Assembly: GCA_016783505.1 (NCBI GenBank)
Contig: JADHWK010000064.1
Coordinates: 1-12,796 of the forward strand
DNA length: 12,796 nucleotides
DNA from: Candidatus Zhuqueibacterota bacterium
Lineage (GTDB): Bacteria; BS750m-G25
Reading direction: 5' to 3'
Below, piece after piece: positions 6,103-12,791 of this stretch. Made by a program: the position numbers and the translations under genes. Each line of letters starts with the position of its first letter. Positions within the stretch are counted from its first letter, which is position 1. The notes under the pieces are model-generated. The model was not told where the DNA came from and did no database searches. It saw nothing but the letters and a program-made list of their open reading frames with translations.

Positions 6103-6376
6103 CGGCTGTGCCCTACCTTCGTTCCTGTCTTACCCGACCTCCCCCACGATAGCCAGCTCCCGCCAAGCGTCCCCGGGGCAGCGGCCCAAAACGCCTACCG
6201 CTGCTACCTCCCGGTCCTGACGGGGTTTGGCGCTCCAGTCCGTCCCCGGGACTCGACGATCAACACCGCTTACCGGGAGGAACATCGGGGGACCCGGACC
6301 TCAGAGTAGGCCTTCGACCCTGCTATAGCGGATTGCAGGCTACAGGGCACCGCTAACTCCCCGTCTAGCACAGCCG
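6103..6376 (-). ncRNA. ffs: Signal recognition particle RNA, long form with Alu domain
   Basis: RNA scaffold of the signal recognition particle, which binds Ffh and targets membrane proteins. The ends pair: CGGCTGTGC at the 5' end (6376-6368) with GCACAGCCG at the 3' end (6111-6103). The 5' part holds the Alu-domain text GGTGCCCTGTAGCC and CAATCCGCTATAGCAGGG. The Ffh-binding helix 8 is visible as GTCAGGACCGGGAGGTAGCA (complement of about 6203-6222), with a GGGA tetraloop (6209-6212) and the GCAGC internal loop. A length of about 274 bases marks the large Gram-positive type rather than the short 4.5S form. It begins directly after the CCA of tRNA-Ala and precedes dnaX, a common location. Confidence 0.93.
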
Positions 6377-6452
6377 TGGTGGAGCTGAGGGGATTTGAAC
6401 CCCTGACCTCTAGAGTGCGATTCTAGCGCTCTCCCATCTGAGCTACAGCCCC
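6377..6452 (-). tRNA. tRNA-Ala(CGC)
   Basis: The minus strand folds into a full cloverleaf of 76 bases with encoded CCA. The acceptor arms GGGGCTG and CAGCTCC include the G3-U70 wobble pair, the classic alanine identity element. The D-arm reads GCTCAGATGGGAGAGC. The anticodon stem CTAGA/TCTAG encloses ATCGCAC, giving anticodon CGC for the codon GCG. The T-arm reads AGGGGTTCAAATCCCCT. The SRP RNA begins at the next base, so one transcript and a shared cleavage point are likely. Confidence 0.96.
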
Positions 6453-6479: not shown

Positions 6480-6634
6480 AACCTACCTGGTATAAAACAA
6501 TCTTTTAATAAATTCCTATTCTCGTATAATGTTCCCATCATAAAAGAAGTCCTGAGGGTAGCGAAGGATTTGGGTAAGTCCCGAAAAATCGGGGCGAACC
6601 TTTTATGCTGTGTTAGGCGACAGTTTTGCGAGAC
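6480..6634 (-). repeat. attC-like recombination site 3 (end of cassette 3)
   Basis: In minus-strand direction the arm GTCTCGCAAAACTGTCGCCTAAC (6634-6612) is the inverted copy of the start of cassette 3 (10378-10357). CAGCATAAAA (6610-6601) then pairs with TTTTATACCA (6497-6488) through a ten-base stem with three G-T pairs, and the site closes with GTT at 6482-6480. The five-base gap between stem and GTT matches the other two sites. The loop has been enlarged and contains a palindromic micro-repeat (6579-6597). Confidence 0.65.
6579..6597. repeat. Palindromic micro-repeat, copy 3, inside attC-like site 3
   Basis: TCCCGAAAAATCGGGGCGAA is a variant of TCCCGAACCTTCGGGACGAA at 3351, including the trailing CGAA. 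It sits in the loop of site 3. Confidence 0.55.
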
Positions 6635-6653
6635 GAATAACATCTTTTCAATT

Positions 6654-7670
6654 CTATTTTCTTTGACTCTCACTTTCTACACTTTTTACTTTCTCATTAT
6701 TTTTATGGGGTAGGTAGAATTCTCTTATTTCTTTGTCAAACTCAAGTGTATATTTCTCTTTATTGTAAAATAACGGAAAAGCATAAACTATCTGAGCCCT
6801 TGATGCATTGTTATTTTCCTCAAAAAATAAATATATCCCAACTGTCTGCATTTTTGTTCCGAGTGGTGCGATTGAGACCATAGAATCTTTGTATTTCTCA
6901 TCACGATACCATCTATTGAGCAAATCCTTTGTGCAAGCAGGATCCAGTGCTGAAACTTCTTCTACAACAGTATTAGGATGTTCCAAGATAGAACGGTTTG
7001 CTGAGCGTGATGGTAAATCAGCGCCGTGATAAGTAGGGGGATTGCCAATAACAGCTACTGTCAAATCGGGTTCAACATATTTCCAAATAGCATACGCCCG
7101 CTCACCCTCGTAACCAAGCAAAAGAATCAAGATATTTCTGTGAAGTTCTACACAGTCGAGATTGCCAAAATAAGGTAAATAAGTTATGTCTTTTATTCCC
7201 CAGGTTAAATTTTGTCTGACCATGTAGTATCCAGGAGTGTATAAAAGCCTTATCTTCGCATTCGGATAATTGGAACGCAGAAATCGAAGTAATAATAATA
7301 AATATTGTTTTGTAAAAGTTGAAATATCAACAGTAATTCGTTCTAATGAAGGATTTTTATGAGCAAGATCATGTAAGAATCGGGTAAATTTGGAAGAATC
7401 ATATTTATTGAAATACACAGGTTCTATTTCATGTGAAGGACTTTCTAAATAGGGTTTGAGTATTTCTTTTAATCTTAGTTGATGCTTATTTTTTAAGTTA
7501 TCTTCACCATAATACCTTACTAAAAGCATGTTGCGTGCCTTATATTCACTCTTTTTCAACCTAGCACTTACATTCAAACATCTTGGCTCAAAACTAACAC
7601 TCGCAATAAACAAATCGTCAGACTTTGAACTTTCGATGGGTCTAACTGTGCTTATCGGTATAACGCTCAT
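6654..7670 (-). CDS. Companion protein of the ATPase/effector system, two Rossmann-like lobes
   Basis: Cytosolic-looking protein of 338 residues that I do not recognise by name. The first half starts with a beta strand DLFIASVSFEPR and has ITVDISTFTKQYLLLLLRF, a layout that recalls Rossmannoid nucleotide sensors such as CARF domains, which carry a D-x-T/S-x-x-TK motif. The second half repeats the theme: ILLLGYEGERA, then TVAVIGNPP, then MVSIAPLGTKMQTVGIYLFF. A role in sensing or target binding is inference. It starts with ATG at 7670, has GGGAG about seven bases upstream, and overlaps the stop of the preceding frame by four bases (ATGA), so the two are translationally coupled. It is the last gene of cassette 3. 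Confidence 0.85.
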   Translation of the reverse strand: MSVIPISTVRPIESSKSDDLFIASVSFEPRCLNVSARLKKSEYKARNMLLVRYYGEDNLKNKHQLRLKEILKPYLESPSHEIEPVYFNKYDSSKFTRFLHDLAHKNPSLERITVDISTFTKQYLLLLLRFLRSNYPNAKIRLLYTPGYYMVRQNLTWGIKDITYLPYFGNLDCVELHRNILILLLGYEGERAYAIWKYVEPDLTVAVIGNPPTYHGADLPSRSANRSILEHPNTVVEEVSALDPACTKDLLNRWYRDEKYKDSMVSIAPLGTKMQTVGIYLFFEENNNASRAQIVYAFPLFYNKEKYTLEFDKEIREFYLPHKNNEKVKSVESESQRK

Positions 7671-8230
7671 TTTCTACTCCCTGATCTAAATTTAACCATA
7701 AAGTCTTCTAACGTATCCTCAATATTTTGTTCGTAAGTGTTTCTACGCCAAGCACAAGGGGAGGCGCTGTTCATTAATACAGGATTATCCCATAAATCAC
7801 CGTCATATGCATATATAACTGAAGACACATCTACAGCTTCAGATAATCCTAATTCTACCACATAATCTACCACTGCCTCTGTGCAATCAATAATCTTGAT
7901 AATGCAACTTTGTAGAGCAAAACACACTTGGCATGTCAAATCGTCCATTGGATAGTCCGACGAGGATATTTCAATTATATCATATTTATCTGATAGTAAA
8001 TTAATTAAAAAATCACATTGTTTCTTGTTTCTTGGTTGAAAAGCTATATATGCTTTCTCTATCCTTTGAGATATTTCGTTTTCATAATCGCAAGAAGATT
8101 TTTCTTTATCGAAAGGACATGACCAATGTTTTTTAAAAAAACTATAACCATGTTGGTGAATCGCATCCCTATACCATTCGTTAAAGGACATATTCTCAAA
8201 TTCAGGAGACGAAGGCTCCCACCTTTTCAC
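7667..8230 (-). CDS. Effector part: deoxyribosyltransferase/TIR-like lobe (frame separated from ATPase)
   Basis: The open frame from GTG 8230 encodes 187 residues, but the coding sequence clearly extends upstream without a stop to about 8390. That extension reads STGVLFEIGLSLGYKSPFF and then LYND, the second half of a nucleoside 2-deoxyribosyltransferase/TIR-like fold, with the presumed catalytic Glu (codon 8338-8336) in FEIG. A second lobe of the same kind lies within the listed frame: AYIAFQPR, then CIIKIIDCTEAVVDYVVELGLSEA, again with E-L-G. Such folds in defence systems often cleave NAD or related nucleotides; that is inference. There is no credible start codon for the extension. The natural product is probably a fusion with the ATPase (see 8369-8378). 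Confidence 0.75.
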   Translation of the reverse strand: MKRWEPSSPEFENMSFNEWYRDAIHQHGYSFFKKHWSCPFDKEKSSCDYENEISQRIEKAYIAFQPRNKKQCDFLINLLSDKYDIIEISSSDYPMDDLTCQVCFALQSCIIKIIDCTEAVVDYVVELGLSEAVDVSSVIYAYDGDLWDNPVLMNSASPCAWRRNTYEQNIEDTLEDFMVKFRSGSRK

Positions 8231-8312
8231 ATCCCAATCTTTGAGGAGCTTAGGTAAACTTTTCTTTTCAAATTCTTCATAGCGGCAATCATTATAGAGA
8301 AAAAATGGACTT

Positions 8313-10304
8313 TTATAACCTAATGAAAGACCTATTTCGAAAAGAACGCCTGTAGAGATGCGTTTCTCTTTTTTTTTTCTGTTTACCTCTGCCTATTTCA
8401 TACTCAATAGGAGTTATATCATGTGTAGTGTAGATAGCTTTCTGGATAATCTTTGGTATATCAATAACAAAACGATGAAGGTCTCGTTTCCATAAATCTC
8501 GTGCTGTTATACATATGTCTTGTTCAACCAATCCAAGCAACCGGGGTCGATCTTTCATATCTTCTTTATGTATATCATTAACTGTACCTTTTAACAAATT
8601 ATTTCTTTCAATAACTTTTTGATCCTTCTTTATTGAAATCGAAATAAAAACAGGATGCTCTGGAAAGATTTTTTTCTGTCCATACTGTGAATCTGCATCT
8701 GGTTGATCGTTTATAGGAGAAAGCATATATTTAATAATTTTATCATTCATCAAAGGAAACTCTCCTTTATTTATCCAGCTAATGCCAAATCGTGGAGCAA
8801 ACAAAGGATTCAGCATACCATGTTCTGGAATATAATCCTTATTAGTATTTATGCTTATTAATTCCTCAGGACTGCATAAAAGAAACCGATTCAAAAAGCC
8901 TTTTCTTAATATTTTTTTAGCTGCCTCACTAATATTAAGAGGTATAGAAAATCTTGAACCTTCAAACGAATATGCTTCTATTCCTTTTTTTTCACAATCT
9001 TTGCCAAAGGAGAGAATAAATGATCTCACCTCACGGAATTCCTCCTCTGTCTCCACATTGACATCTTTATTAAAAGTTAGTGTTGCCAGAGACACAAAAG
9101 CATCAGCTTGTGATTTAGCCGAAATAAAACTAACCTCTTTCGCCTGCTTTTTACTCCGATTGATTTCATTGTCAATCGCTTTTTCACATAGGTTCAAAAA
9201 GGTCAGGATATTTCCTCCAGAAAGTTTAACTAACCTATCGAATCCATAATACAATTTTTGTCTCATATTTCGACTTGTGCCTTTTTCAAAAGTATGAAGT
9301 CGTCTAAGATTTTCACCAGGACTATTACCCTTGTCTATAATATGCTCTATTTTTTGTGGAAATTTTTCAGAAAACACTTCAGCCATATCTATTTCATCTT
9401 TTCCCTGAGGTGATAGTATCTTAATTGTAATTTTTCGAAGAAGTCTTTCATATTGAATATCATAAGGGTCATGGTCTAAAGATAAAATTCCTAAGTCTCT
9501 TGTAAGGTCAATTTTTCTACCCGAAACATCTGAACCAAAAGACTCTGGGAGATATCTTGCGGCGAATTTAACACATAGAGTCTCTTTTAAACTGTGATCT
9601 AAAAAAATATTTAAAACCTTACCTAATCCTTTCCAGTAGTCATATTTATCTACTAAGAGGCATAATCTCTGCTTTCCAATTTTGGTTAATAACTCATCAT
9701 TCATCCGTTCTATCGTAGAAATAAACATGTCCGAGTTAAGGACTCTCATATTTAATTGCTCAGAAAAATCTCTGATTAATCTATTATTTATGATGTTATT
9801 TCTAATTATACTTATTACTTTCTTAAGCCTTTCAATTAGACTATTTACATTAATATTTTCTATATTTAACATATATTCCTCATTGATAATATGAGGGAGA
9901 ATTTCTAACATTTTATAGTCATCATTTAAGAGATTATCCTTTAATTGTATAAGAAGTTCTAAAGCCGTTTTTACACTGAAAAAATGTTCAAAAGTGGCAA
10001 AGTCACTGTAGTCTTGGTATAATCGCACAAGATGTTTCAATTCGGGATTTTTAAAGCCTATATAAACTCCATAGAAAGACAAGTTTTCTAATCTATTTCT
10101 CTTTAATTGAACAGATAAAGAAAGTGCTTTTAAAACAGCAGACTTTCCGCTCCCTGTAGAGCCAATCAAAATACAGTGCCCTGGCTGTAAATATTTTTCA
10201 TAGTCTGGAGGCTCTGCAAATAATGAGTAAATTTCATTAAAATCAATATGTTCAGCGTTTTTCTCTCTCCTAAAAGGATTATCAATCAACTTAAATTTGA
10301 CCAT
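8313..10304 (-). CDS. ORC1/CDC6-like AAA ATPase with start of a TIR/deoxyribosyltransferase-like domain
   Basis: This 663-residue protein has the plan of the ORC-CDC6-type ATPases found in bacterial defence loci. It starts with NPFRREKNAEHIDFNEIYSL, then LFAEPPDYEKYLQPGHCILI, then Walker A GSTGSGKS (48-55). The Walker B region is LCLLVDKYDYW (214-224), where Lys220 stands in the place of the usual catalytic Glu. A likely sensor follows in VKFAARYL. From about residue 550 a new domain begins: PVFISISIKKDQ and LWKRDLHRFVIDIP fit the first half of a deoxyribosyltransferase/TIR-like fold. The frame then meets a run of ten A residues and ends 18 codons later in RSFRNRSFIRL, which looks out of frame. 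The start is ATG 10304, 73 bases into the cassette. Confidence 0.85.
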   Translation of the reverse strand: MVKFKLIDNPFRREKNAEHIDFNEIYSLFAEPPDYEKYLQPGHCILIGSTGSGKSAVLKALSLSVQLKRNRLENLSFYGVYIGFKNPELKHLVRLYQDYSDFATFEHFFSVKTALELLIQLKDNLLNDDYKMLEILPHIINEEYMLNIENINVNSLIERLKKVISIIRNNIINNRLIRDFSEQLNMRVLNSDMFISTIERMNDELLTKIGKQRLCLLVDKYDYWKGLGKVLNIFLDHSLKETLCVKFAARYLPESFGSDVSGRKIDLTRDLGILSLDHDPYDIQYERLLRKITIKILSPQGKDEIDMAEVFSEKFPQKIEHIIDKGNSPGENLRRLHTFEKGTSRNMRQKLYYGFDRLVKLSGGNILTFLNLCEKAIDNEINRSKKQAKEVSFISAKSQADAFVSLATLTFNKDVNVETEEEFREVRSFILSFGKDCEKKGIEAYSFEGSRFSIPLNISEAAKKILRKGFLNRFLLCSPEELISINTNKDYIPEHGMLNPLFAPRFGISWINKGEFPLMNDKIIKYMLSPINDQPDADSQYGQKKIFPEHPVFISISIKKDQKVIERNNLLKGTVNDIHKEDMKDRPRLLGLVEQDICITARDLWKRDLHRFVIDIPKIIQKAIYTTHDITPIEYEIGRGKQKKKRETHLYRRSFRNRSFIRL
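8369..8378 (-). other. A10 homopolymer that breaks the ATPase-effector reading frame
   Basis: Ten A residues (coding strand) encode KKK in the ATPase frame. Leaving out one A joins residue 645 directly to EKRISTGVLFEIG and continues to the stop at 7667, giving one protein of about 878 residues with an ATPase and two TIR/deoxyribosyltransferase-like lobes. The downstream motif completes the fold begun upstream. A slippage site, a phase-variable tract, a fixed mutation or an assembly error would all look the same here. Confidence 0.7.
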
Positions 10305-10377
10305 TTCCTATCACCTATTGTTTTTGACTCTTTAATCAATTTTTGCTGGTGCAAAAGTCTCGCAAAATGTCGCCTAA

Positions 10378-10449
10378 CGGTACCAGCATATACGACGTTT
10401 TGTGATAGCAAAATGTCCCGAAGCGTATATGCTGTGTTATCTGCCGTTA
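10378..10449 (-). repeat. attC-like recombination site 2 (end of cassette 2)
   Basis: In minus-strand direction: TAACGGCAGATAAC (10449-10436), CAGCATATACG (10434-10424), an internal loop, ACATTTTG (10416-10409), a six-base apex, CAAAACGT (10402-10395), CGTATATGCTG (10394-10384), five bases, and GTTAGGC (10378-10372). The 11-base stem is perfect and the next eight bases pair with one G-T. GTTAGGC fits the integron core consensus GTTRRRY, with unpaired bases between the R and L type boxes. The first 14 bases are the inverted copy of the start of cassette 2 (one mismatch). Confidence 0.75.
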
Positions 10450-10458
10450 TAATAAATA

Positions 10459-11118
10459 TCAGTTGAATAAAGACCAAATAACACTTGCTAACAAAGAGGA
10501 TAGAATACCAGCTATAAAACCTATTACTATTTTCTTATTTTTATACCACCAAGTAGAAATTATAATTGCTTCCTTAATTTCACCTGCAATATTCTTCGCA
10601 TTCTCTTTGAACGCTTTATCATATGCTTCATTAATGGGCAAACTTTCGTCTTTTTCTTCAGGATCAGGTTTCTTCATTATTTTGGTTGCTTTGGTTTTAA
10701 GAATGTGAATTGCATCATCAAGTGTTCCTTTACGTGTGAAAAATAAATATGGAATAGATTTAAAATTTTGACCAATGACATATGCTAGCGTAATTCCGCC
10801 ATTAGATGATTGATTAAGCTTGGCAAGAACTGTTCGAAATTTTGTTTGCGCTTTTAGATATAATTTTCTTTCAACGTGTAATTTTTGTAATTGCTCCTCA
10901 GTTGGCCGAGAATCCATCGGATAGTATAAATCTAATACAAAAATGTCAGGCCTTTTTCTTCCCTGCTTTTTTAAATCATCTAATGCCTCAGGATAAGTTG
11001 TTCCAGCGCCAATGATAAAACCATTCTCAAGTTTATCCTTGTCAAGGTTATTCTTGAAGCGCTTAATTTCATCTTGGTCGTCATCAATAAAGCAAATTGC
11101 ATATTCTTTTTGATACAT
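10459..11118 (-). CDS. Response-regulator receiver domain with C-terminal membrane anchor
   Basis: This 219-residue protein starts with a CheY-like receiver fold: FIDDDQDE with acidic D12-D14, the phosphorylation site Asp63 in IFVLDLYYP, Thr128 in PYLFFTRKG, and the Lys-Pro pair K150-P151 in IMKKPDP. About 40 polar residues follow, then one hydrophobic helix (about 196-217, IVIGFIAGILSSLLASVIW) at the very end. There is no DNA-binding or enzyme output domain, so it probably acts at the inner face of the membrane through a partner. An insertion of about 30 residues after D63 is longer than usual. No histidine kinase lies in the window. The start is ATG 11118 with GGTGAT just upstream. It is the only gene of cassette 2. 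Confidence 0.85.
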   Translation of the reverse strand: MYQKEYAICFIDDDQDEIKRFKNNLDKDKLENGFIIGAGTTYPEALDDLKKQGRKRPDIFVLDLYYPMDSRPTEEQLQKLHVERKLYLKAQTKFRTVLAKLNQSSNGGITLAYVIGQNFKSIPYLFFTRKGTLDDAIHILKTKATKIMKKPDPEEKDESLPINEAYDKAFKENAKNIAGEIKEAIIISTWWYKNKKIVIGFIAGILSSLLASVIWSLFN

Positions 11119-11154
11119 TTAATCACCCATTCGTAGAGTTCGTATTAGGTAATG

Positions 11155-11302
11155 GCAGATAACGGTTGGCCGGTATACGAAGTGCGTACCTTAACGAAAT
11201 CTAAGTTAATAAATATGGTTGGGTTTTCAGTGTCTGTCAAGTATGTTTGAGAAGTAGTGGAGAAGCAAGCATTTTGTATACCGGCTTGTTGTGTGCCGTT
11301 AA
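11155..11302 (-). repeat. attC-like recombination site 1 (end of cassette 1)
   Basis: In minus-strand direction: TTAACGGCACACAAC (11302-11288), a stem of 16 pairs between 11284-11269 and 11185-11170 built on GTATACCGG/CCGGTATAC with G-T pairs beyond it, an 83-base loop, six bases, and GTT at 11163-11161. The first 15 bases are the inverted copy of the start of cassette 1 (14 of 15). The stop of the upstream gene lies inside the first arm. Confidence 0.7.
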
Positions 11303-11847
11303 TTACCTCTAAAACCAAATTTATGTAATTTTTCAAATTCTCCATTCTTATTTTTCTCTATAGATCTGGCTAAAAATTCTTTTGAACGTTGAAACTGTTT
11401 ATTGAATATTACCATGAATTCGCTACTATCAAGATCTTTTTCTTCAATACTATTTTTTTCAAGGTAAACCCTAATTGTAGTGTGTAATTGTAAATAGAAT
11501 TGGTCAATTAGCGATTCTTGATTAGGTTTCCATGAGATTTTCCACTTTTTGTGATGAGTTTGGTAGAATAGTAACTCTTCTGCAGTAATAATTGATGAAA
11601 GAAGACCTGATACTTTGTCATTCCTCCGCGGTGGCTTGCTCAGGTTAACCGGGTCTAAGTTATTATTACATTCTTTTGCTTTATCTGCTAGCTGACTATT
11701 AAGAAGACTTACTCTTTGATATCTTAATGCTCTAACTGCAACAAATAAAGAGATCATAGCAACAATAAGCGCGAAAATTGATGTTATTAAGCTGTAATTC
11801 ATATTAAAAAATTATGCAATTCCTTTAAATTTATTAATGGCACACAA
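11163..11847 (-). mobile_element. Cassette 1: small membrane protein
   Basis: A 685-base unit from the GTT next to the attI-like hairpin to the G of site 1. Its 5' end GTTGTGTGCCATTAA (11848-11834) recurs inverted as TTAACGGCACACAAC at 11302-11288. Being next to the recombinase, it would be the most recently inserted unit under the integron model. Confidence 0.62.
11299..11802 (-). CDS. Single-pass membrane protein of unknown function
   Basis: A 167-residue protein with no family I can name. Residues 4-23 (SLITSIFALIVAMISLFVAV) form one N-terminal membrane helix, followed by RALRYQR; the positive charges suggest the rest lies in the cytosol. The remainder is mostly polar and helical, with AEELLFYQTHHKKWKISW in the middle and a basic tail ending KLHKFGFRGN. 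The signature-anchor plan resembles small membrane effectors or sensors, but nothing in the sequence decides. It starts with ATG at 11802, 46 bases into cassette 1. Its TAA stop is part of the attC-like site that follows. Confidence 0.78.
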   Translation of the reverse strand: MNYSLITSIFALIVAMISLFVAVRALRYQRVSLLNSQLADKAKECNNNLDPVNLSKPPRRNDKVSGLLSSIITAEELLFYQTHHKKWKISWKPNQESLIDQFYLQLHTTIRVYLEKNSIEEKDLDSSEFMVIFNKQFQRSKEFLARSIEKNKNGEFEKLHKFGFRGN

Positions 11848-11877
11848 CTTGTTCATATCCGAACTAGGTTCGGATAT
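11846..11877 (-). other. attI-like site between recombinase and first cassette
   Basis: ATATCCGAAC and GTTCGGATAT (11855-11877, three-base loop) form a perfect ten-base hairpin, followed after six bases by GTT at 11848-11846. Hairpin-to-GTT spacing equals that of site 1. The matching outer arm found at the other three sites is missing, as expected for a primary site rather than a cassette end. It lies 23 bases after the recombinase stop. Confidence 0.5.
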
Positions 11878-11900
11878 ACCTTCCTCTAGCCGAATCGTTT

Positions 11901-12320
11901 TTAAGATTTTCCTCCTCTCTTACGAATGCTCAAACTATCCAGCGGGCTCCTAATTCTTCCAATGCTCTGTTTGCTAACATGGGTATATATTTCGGTTGTC
12001 TTACTACTCTTATGCCCCATCCCGAAATTTCGGGACTGAATATACCGGAGGTCAGTCCCGCTTTCTAATAGGTGTGTCGCAAAACTATGTCTAAGACTGT
12101 GTACCGAAACCTGTTTTTGAGTTCCTGCTATCCGGCATGCTTTTGTGAAAATCTTCTCAACCGTTCGCGATGTTATATGTTTGTCCTTGTTCTGTCCTGG
12201 AAACAACCACTTCTTTGGTCTGTATTCCTTCCAGTATCCCCTTAGAATACCCAATGATCTCTCGGAAAGAATGGTATATCTATCCTTCCTCCCTTTAGTA
12301 TCCCTAATGTGAATAAACAT
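11901..12320 (-). CDS. Tyrosine recombinase, N-terminal half missing
   Basis: The 139-residue frame covers the C-terminal catalytic domain of a phage-integrase-type recombinase. Visible: [13 protein letters not shown] with catalytic Lys9, HSLRHSF with His74 and Arg77, GHKSS with His103, and IYTHVS with the nucleophile Tyr112. The tail reads RIRSPLDSL, a sequence also common at the end of integron integrases. The segment between the Lys strand and HSLRH is short, so the extra IntI-specific helix is absent. Homology extends a few codons upstream (EHIDSKR, to 12341), then stops at a junction. The core-binding domain and the first catalytic Arg are lost, so it should be inactive. A palindrome adds three residues at SRNFGM (96-101). 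It points toward the array. Confidence 0.88.
12020..12035. repeat. Palindromic micro-repeat, copy 4, inside the recombinase gene
   Basis: TCCCGAAATTTCGGGA is a perfect 16-base palindrome. It encodes most of SRNFGM between RYIQ and GHKSS, where this family normally has three residues, so at least nine bases appear to be inserted in frame. Confidence 0.65.
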
Positions 12321-12562
12321 CCTTTTGCTGTCAATATGTTCTTTTCGGTTCTGGATTGTACATTACGCTCTCTTCCCTTCCATACCGAAAACGGCACCAC
12401 CTTTTCAAAGTACGAATCCCCGCCGTGGACATAGTCGCCCTCCTCTTCAACGAAGCGGTGATCAGCGGTAACAACAACCTTAAATTCCGACCCGACTCGC
12501 CGAACCCAGCATTCATGAGTATTAGAGAAATCCTTTCTACTCTGCCGTCCGCCGTCATCCAT
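12242..12562 (-). CDS. Hypothetical protein, probably truncated and run into recombinase DNA
   Basis: An ATG at 12562 overlaps the stop of the zinc-finger gene by eight bases, and the frame reads [12 protein letters not shown], then [20 protein letters not shown], then [20 protein letters not shown]. This looks like a real compact protein of about 75 residues, of no family I can name. From about position 12341 onward the frame reads the recombinase gene out of register ([12 protein letters not shown] to HWVF), so the last 33 or so residues are an artefact of the junction. The overlap suggests an operon with the upstream YgiT-type gene, possibly a toxin-antitoxin pair. Confidence is limited by the missing true C-terminus. 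Confidence 0.5.
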
Positions 12563-12791
12563 GAGAATTAATTTCGTACAACTCAGCAGTAAACTTGCCT
12601 GATGGCTTGACTCTTCCATTTAAGATATTCTCTACAATTTTTGCTGATGACAAAGGCATTGATTCTTGCCCACACTCTGGACATACATACATAACCAAGT
12701 CCGAAATAACAATAGGCTCGCCGTTACGAAGGAATATCTTTTCTTCTTTTCTTTCCTCCATTGGGAATGGACAGCCATTTGGACACTGCAT
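12555..12791 (-). CDS. YgiT-type zinc-finger protein (MqsA-like N-terminal domain)
   Basis: This small 78-residue protein has two cysteine pairs, CPNGC (C3, C7) and CPEC (C37, C40), around MEERKEEKIFLRNGEPIVI and VMYVCPECGQES. This is the YgiT-type zinc finger, which forms the toxin-binding N-terminal domain of MqsA-like antitoxins. The helix-turn-helix domain of full MqsA is absent; many short relatives occur beside a small toxin gene. The tail SSAKIVENILNGRVKPSGKF is typical of the short form. ATG at 12791 is five bases from the window edge, so upstream signals cannot be judged. The next gene starts inside its last codons. Confidence 0.82.
   Translation of the reverse strand: MQCPNGCPFPMEERKEEKIFLRNGEPIVISDLVMYVCPECGQESMPLSSAKIVENILNGRVKPSGKFTAELYEINSHG

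Follow-up and report, generated by a model that had tools for sequence, protein, structure and literature searches.

The DNA analysed here, a stretch of 12,796 nucleotides (the window) that makes up the entire contig C82 of a 2.5 Mb assembly which is 60% complete, very probably carries a decayed copy of a widespread integron-like platform for cassette capture, distinct from the IntI integrons and equipped with its own recombinase devoid of the I2 helix. In the full platform a recombinase with a HARP-like N-terminal domain and without the IntI insert is followed by an attI-like repeat, 6 nt, G/TT and then the cassettes, whose genes point away from the recombinase and each of which is closed by an attC-like hairpin. 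Most likely the recombinase joins the attI-like and attC-like sites at G/TT, and cassettes would be inserted beside the recombinase as circles and later be excised. The integron-like mode of working is well supported; with regard to the recombinase and to the site model the system falls outside the integrons proper. Whether the sites are used as folded single strands is the question which weighs most, because the I2 helix of the IntI insert has been reported to give single-strand recombination (PMC7790495) and its origin has been described as a chicken-and-egg paradox (PMC4792948).

On the minus strand of the window a YgiT/MqsA-like zinc-finger ORF is followed by a recombinase remnant, an attI-like hairpin and three GTT-bounded units, all genes of which run in the same direction and each of which is closed by a long attC-like hairpin. 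The remnant (11913..12377) comprises the C-terminal half only of a non-IntI tyrosine recombinase (family model A6; Phage_integrase, 3.9e-25). As the preliminary description had stated, its tail reads RSPLD, the extra IntI segment is missing and the gene (12377-11913) is transcribed toward the array. The attI-like site (11846..11879) is a perfect 9/9 inverted repeat, ATATCCGAA..TTCGGATAT, separated by the 6-nt spacer GAACAA from the G/TT of the first cassette. This cassette C (11164..11848) holds a single ORF without assigned function (11802-11299), and its GTT start at 11848 recurs inverted at 11302-11288 within its attC-like site (11150..11302), which has a long loop and the inner arms GCCGGTATAC/GTATACCGGC. 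Cassette B (10379..11163) likewise has one gene (11118-10459, weak similarity to response regulators); its attC-like site (10357..10449) belongs to the sub-type TAACACAGCATATACGC..CGTATATGCTG and scores 64.7 bits with R1, our model of the new sites (fold z -5.7). Cassette A (6530..10378) contains three genes, coding for an Sll1717/ORC-CDC6-like ATPase (10304-8313), an ORF product (8230-7667) and a CARF6-like protein (7670-6654), and these (6654-10304, minus strand) probably form a defence module. The attC-like site of cassette A (6523..6634; R1, 75.3 bits), the last in the array, is of the sub-type TAACACAGCATAAAAGG..CTTTTATGATG and ends in A/TT and not in G/TT. Possibly this end (6530), which is also seen in a site on contig C53 of the same genome, reflects insertion at a secondary target or decay. 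Homologous sites are present on contigs C29, C36 and C53 of this genome, about 15 in all by the covariance model, and Rfam gave no family at the hairpin sites of the window. The end of the array lies ~70 nt from genes for a large bacterial SRP RNA and a tRNA-like RNA (6106-6452, minus strand); the tmRNA model matched the ends of the tRNA-like gene.

According to the preliminary description each unit starts at a GTT and ends in a long hairpin site whose first arm is the inverted copy of the start of the same unit. This is borne out: the three arm pairs (11848/11302, 11163/10449 and 10378/6634) are exact at these coordinates and all three sites fold to a hairpin. On the minus strand the start and the reverse complement of the end read GTTGTGTGCCATTAA and GTTGTGTGCCGTTAA in unit C, GTTATCTGCCATTA and GTTATCTGCCGTTA in unit B, and GTTAGGCGACATTTTGCGAGAC and GTTAGGCGACAGTTTTGCGAGAC in unit A. 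When both strands were folded, it was the strand opposite the genes that gave the more stable hairpin at each window site, as is also true of integrons (for the site of cassette C, -15.7 kcal/mol versus -8.7 on the other strand). The pairing with the own start is real, but extended arms alone do not serve as a hallmark of the system. The notion that arms of 14-22 bases are unique to it was dropped, as two of the class 1 cassettes checked, aac(6')-Il and blaGES-24, also pair over ~12-13 bases. Peculiar to the new system is the combination of a fixed mismatch, a perfectly paired inner stem and the recombinase.

The window recombinase covers positions 206-357 of the 360-position family model A6, has one TAA stop inside the match and carries an in-frame insertion near the second catalytic His; we therefore regard it as a remnant. 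It is 60-62% identical to the intact relatives L105 from Nitrospirae (MNVK01000014), L111 from Methanocellales (JASEEY010000013) and L144. Being truncated, it cannot serve the array itself, and the three cassettes could be moved only by an enzyme acting in trans; a search of the window's own genome, at 60% completeness, returned no intact family recombinase. The YgiT/MqsA-like zinc-finger ORF (12555-12791, minus strand) lies directly upstream of the remnant, at the place where the missing N-terminal half would be expected.

Using the intact relatives we sought family members in 50 site-bearing genomes, many of the matches being fragments. Seventeen of 42 family recombinases lie within 10 kb of a listed site, 15 of these upstream and on the same strand, compared with none of 53 other Xer-type or tyrosine recombinases and none of 13 true IntIs (Fisher p 1e-7). 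The remaining 25 of the 42 have no site within 10 kb among the matches listed, and many of them are on short contigs or are fragments. Later model matches placed sites downstream of three more family members, among them G011, which had been one of two apparent exceptions. An IntI above the family cut-off occurs in only five of the 50 genomes, and the surroundings of these IntI genes contained neither a new-type site nor the attI motif. The earlier suggestion of a cassette system served by a non-IntI recombinase family is thus strengthened by a specific and directional association, by the attI-like site and by the insert-less clade described below, and it needs qualification in the window itself owing to the truncation of the enzyme.

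In all 15 family members the spacing from KDR to HxLRH is 59 residues, as compared with 100 residues in eight of eight IntIs and 59-68 in Xer proteins, and the IntI insert of ~40 residues including the I2 helix is absent from the family. The catalytic residues R, K, H, R, H and Y are invariant. We computed a tree of 46 sequences, 20 of them of Xer type, with few intermediates and with no reference archaeal XerA; herein the family forms one clade (97/74) and IntI another (100/99), and both are split with 100/100 from the Xer sequences, which include Xer proteins of the same genomes and E. coli XerC/XerD. The family accordingly does not group with XerC/XerD rather than IntI in this tree. Seven family members score 165-239 bits with TIGR02249 and none passes the cut-off of 265; six of seven long members pass that of NCBIfam NF040815, a XerA-type model which is named 'site-specific tyrosine recombinase/integron integrase'. 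At the N-terminus there is a similarity to the HARP domain which stays below threshold. The best structural matches of a predicted model are archaeal XerA (PDB 5hxy and 4a8e) and then IntI (2a3v); this AlphaFold model, built from a three-sequence alignment, is of moderate confidence (pLDDT 69, pTM 0.45) and was used for fold naming only. The family hence shares NF040815 and the nearest structures with the XerA/Xer type, from which it differs in its place in the tree, its HARP-like N-terminal domain and its linkage to cassette arrays. Several true IntI matches (L145, L146, L147 and L150) have N-terminal extensions, the fragment L150 having the HARP-like N-terminus of the family.

Between the recombinase and the first cassette there is an attI-like inverted repeat, situated 50-180 nt past the recombinase stop, whose right arm usually ends 6 nt before the GTT. 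A repeat scoring at least 8 of 9 pairs was found in 16 of 22 readable loci as compared with 4% in shuffled controls; a 23rd locus is masked sequence and stands outside the count, and for one of the 16 (G038:C135) the automatic search gave a different form, probably a chance match, a related motif being visible there by eye. The arms change together from locus to locus and stay mostly complementary, as the pairs ATATCCGAA/TTCGGATAT, ATATACGAC/GTCGTATAT and ATTTACGAA/TTCGTAAAT illustrate.

From the window sites and their homologues we derived the site pattern TAACACARCATAWAMG N30-60 KTWTATGYTG, for which ~0.2 random matches are expected. At least 115 stretches contain it, and these come from more than 20 phyla of bacteria and archaea. 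Among the matches listed the archaeal titles name ANME-1, Altiarchaeales, Methanosarcinales, Nanoarchaeota, Hydrothermarchaeota and Micrarchaeota, and the bacterial ones Chloroflexota, Nitrospirota, Desulfobacterota, Spirochaetota, Bacteroidota, Patescibacteria, Aminicenantes, Atribacteria and others. Most of these hosts are metagenome bins with uncertain host names. A complete Ignavibacteria chromosome and contigs of 100-400 kb carry the sites as well, and misbinning alone is therefore unlikely to explain the spread over phyla. Searches of IMG/VR with the recombinase relatives and the site pattern, and a BLAST search of the consensus site against plasmids and phages, returned nothing, so that the system looks chromosomal in the collections searched.

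The sites have the layout R''...TAAC-A-L''...L'-NRAAC-GTTA...R' and fall into two main core types, to which array neighbours add further types with other inner arms. In 42 of ~115 testable sites at least 13 of 16 positions of the R'' arm agree with the upstream GTT start of the same cassette, whereas control arms from other loci reach this agreement in 3%; the R'' arm of related sites showed no match to the start of the next unit. The arm pairing is thus beyond chance. Arm position 11 is a fixed mismatch in 95% of the 42 cassettes, with A in the start and C in the end, and positions 1-9 and 12-15 mostly pair in spite of their varied composition. In the window this mismatch recurs in units B and C; in unit A a bulge of one base is found at the next position. 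The outer stem consists of the first and last 15-17 bases of the cassette itself and the inner stem of 10-11 perfectly paired bases; even inner arms of unrelated sequence (CAGCATATACG, CGGTGTATGCG, GCGGATAAAAG and GAGCGTATCTG) keep perfect complementarity. Most sites accordingly have no extrahelical base in the inner stem, the seed pattern having favoured perfectly complementary sites. Further short hairpins occur within the stem. When 120 related sites were folded by strand, the strand opposite to the genes was the more stable one in 105 and the less stable one in 8.

Family and phylum searches for relatives of the window's genome gave only the genome itself, and we therefore compared the presence and absence of cassettes in other hosts. 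The comparison suggested in the preliminary description showed that other genomes have family recombinases near GTT-bounded units and that individual units vary between them. A 1.7-kb cassette with a ThaI-like restriction enzyme and a methylase is common to three genomes at 78-80% identity, namely Psychracetigena (L048, Bacteroidota), an archaeal Altarchaeum bin (L058) and an Acetothermia bin (L188). The homology extends from GTTA, within few bases, to ...CTGGAAACGTTA and the flanks are unrelated; the cassette adjoins an attI-like site in two of the genomes and an attC-like site in the third. Three ANME-1 genomes share an upstream gene region (75-93% identical) and recombinase remnants, which are then followed by different cassettes. 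The units are therefore not carried as one fixed block in the genomes where this could be compared, and individual cassettes do move between arrays and genomes. This movement was seen for cassettes other than the three of the window: the ATPase of cassette A was not found in 50 other site-bearing genomes and the other cassette proteins of the window were not found in the related loci compared.

With integrons in the established sense (IntI/attI/attC, chromosomal integrons and CALINs) the new arrays share ordered cassettes of the same direction, G/TT boundaries, a hairpin site to which each end of the cassette contributes one part, the more stable fold on the bottom strand, and an attI-like site next to a tyrosine recombinase with an SPLD motif at its end. 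They differ in that the recombinase has no IntI insert and is transcribed toward the array, that the sites have a perfectly paired inner stem, unequal spacers (1 and ~5 nt) and the outer mismatch at position 11, and that the attI-like site, conserved across phyla, has the form of a palindrome at a distance of 6 nt from the crossover. Moreover, the canonical and the new site models do not detect each other's sites. R2, a small model built from eight class 1 attCs, recovers the attCs of class 1 and those adjacent to IntI; neither in the window nor in 15 related loci does it match any of the new sites, which hence do not conform to the canonical R''-L''-L'-R' form. R1 in turn has no matches in integron arrays. 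In an Actinomycetota bin (G049; contigs C41, C11 and C3; L140 and L133) a true IntI with canonical attCs, two of which R2 finds beside the IntI, occurs together with new-type sites on other contigs. Both systems coexist without mixing in the sampled genomes. The new system resembles the archaeal integrons (PMC9668308) and the reverse-oriented integrons of spirochaetes in having attI just downstream of the recombinase gene, in occurring in archaea and in consisting mostly of arrays without a recognised IntI. The archaeal IntIs, however, are reported to have the IntI-specific domain, whereas the new arrays adjoin a family below the cut-off of the IntI model. Some of the archaeal CALINs of Ghaly et al. 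2022 (PMC9668308) may belong to the new system. Our literature search, with preprints and most subscription journals outside its scope, found no description of such a system, and an earlier account may exist.

It could be argued that the units are ordinary integron cassettes, i.e., CALINs (attC clusters without IntI), which a true IntI mobilizes in trans and beside which the recombinase lies by coincidence. Most archaeal integrons are indeed CALINs, and IntI1 used eight of nine tested attCs from archaea at control-like frequencies (PMC9668308); the overall layout is that of an integron, and the IntIs in five of the 50 site-bearing genomes could act in trans. However, the other 45 genomes have no IntI above the cut-off and none of the IntIs lies within 10 kb of a listed site. 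Where both occur, in G049, the IntI-adjacent attCs match the canonical model and the new-type sites are elsewhere, and it is specifically the family recombinase that precedes the sites on their own strand, a conserved attI-like site lying between enzyme and array. We consider mobilization by IntI improbable. Still far less credible is that we are dealing with transposon-like elements bounded by terminal inverted repeats, or with hairpins of the repetitive extragenic or terminator kind that have nothing to do with recombination. It is true that inverted ends are present in each unit and that a genome can contain the hairpin many times (~15 in that of the window). However, the units adjoin one another in ordered arrays, with a single site per unit and with most genes running in one direction, no transposase is found among the sampled cassette proteins, and shared units end exactly at the GTT beside an attI-like or attC-like site. 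In repetitive extragenic or terminator hairpins, moreover, no pairing with the beginning of the respective unit would be expected.

The competing reading that deserves more attention is a variant of our own, in which the strands are exchanged pairwise in duplex or cruciform DNA and the hairpins are pairs of binding sites, the system being a shuffler of duplex cassettes. It agrees with a recombinase that lacks the very insert whose I2 helix reportedly confers single-strand recombination, and with inner arms without an extrahelical base. On the other hand, the outer and the inner arms vary in sequence and yet remain paired, the two halves of the outer stem lie at opposite ends of the cassette, and folding consistently favours the strand opposite to the genes (105 versus 8). 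Covariation of the arms, the split stem and the strand bias point to selection on the folded strand. We therefore hold duplex exchange to be possible but the less likely course, and infer that the platform uses folded single-stranded sites, with the family recombinase presumably catalysing attI x attC recombination and circular cassettes as the likely intermediates.

We lean towards viewing the system as a cross-domain sister of the integrons, with structured attC-like sites and a recombinase whose lineage never gained the IntI insert with the I2 helix. If this is true, cassette capture by means of folded sites predates the I2 helix and the extrahelical bases or arose without them, and part of the bacterial and archaeal arrays now filed as CALINs belongs to the sister system; IntI-based searches would report its arrays as orphan. 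An insert-less clade which stands next to IntI and yet is found on attC-like arrays makes the I2 question directly testable.

Restriction-modification genes and other genes for defence appear to travel with the system between archaea and bacteria. The cargo often consists of whole multi-gene modules, among them restriction-modification pairs, a GmrSD/HNH enzyme, SIR2-like and HEPN proteins and various enzymes. In some cases the same cassette body has attC-like sites of a different core type depending on the genome (L035/L045, and L015, on contig C29 of the window's own genome, compared with L025). In L035/L045 and L015/L025 the homology stops inside the site at TAACACARCATA, and this difference in core type may be a trace of site exchange or of the gain of sites by cassettes.
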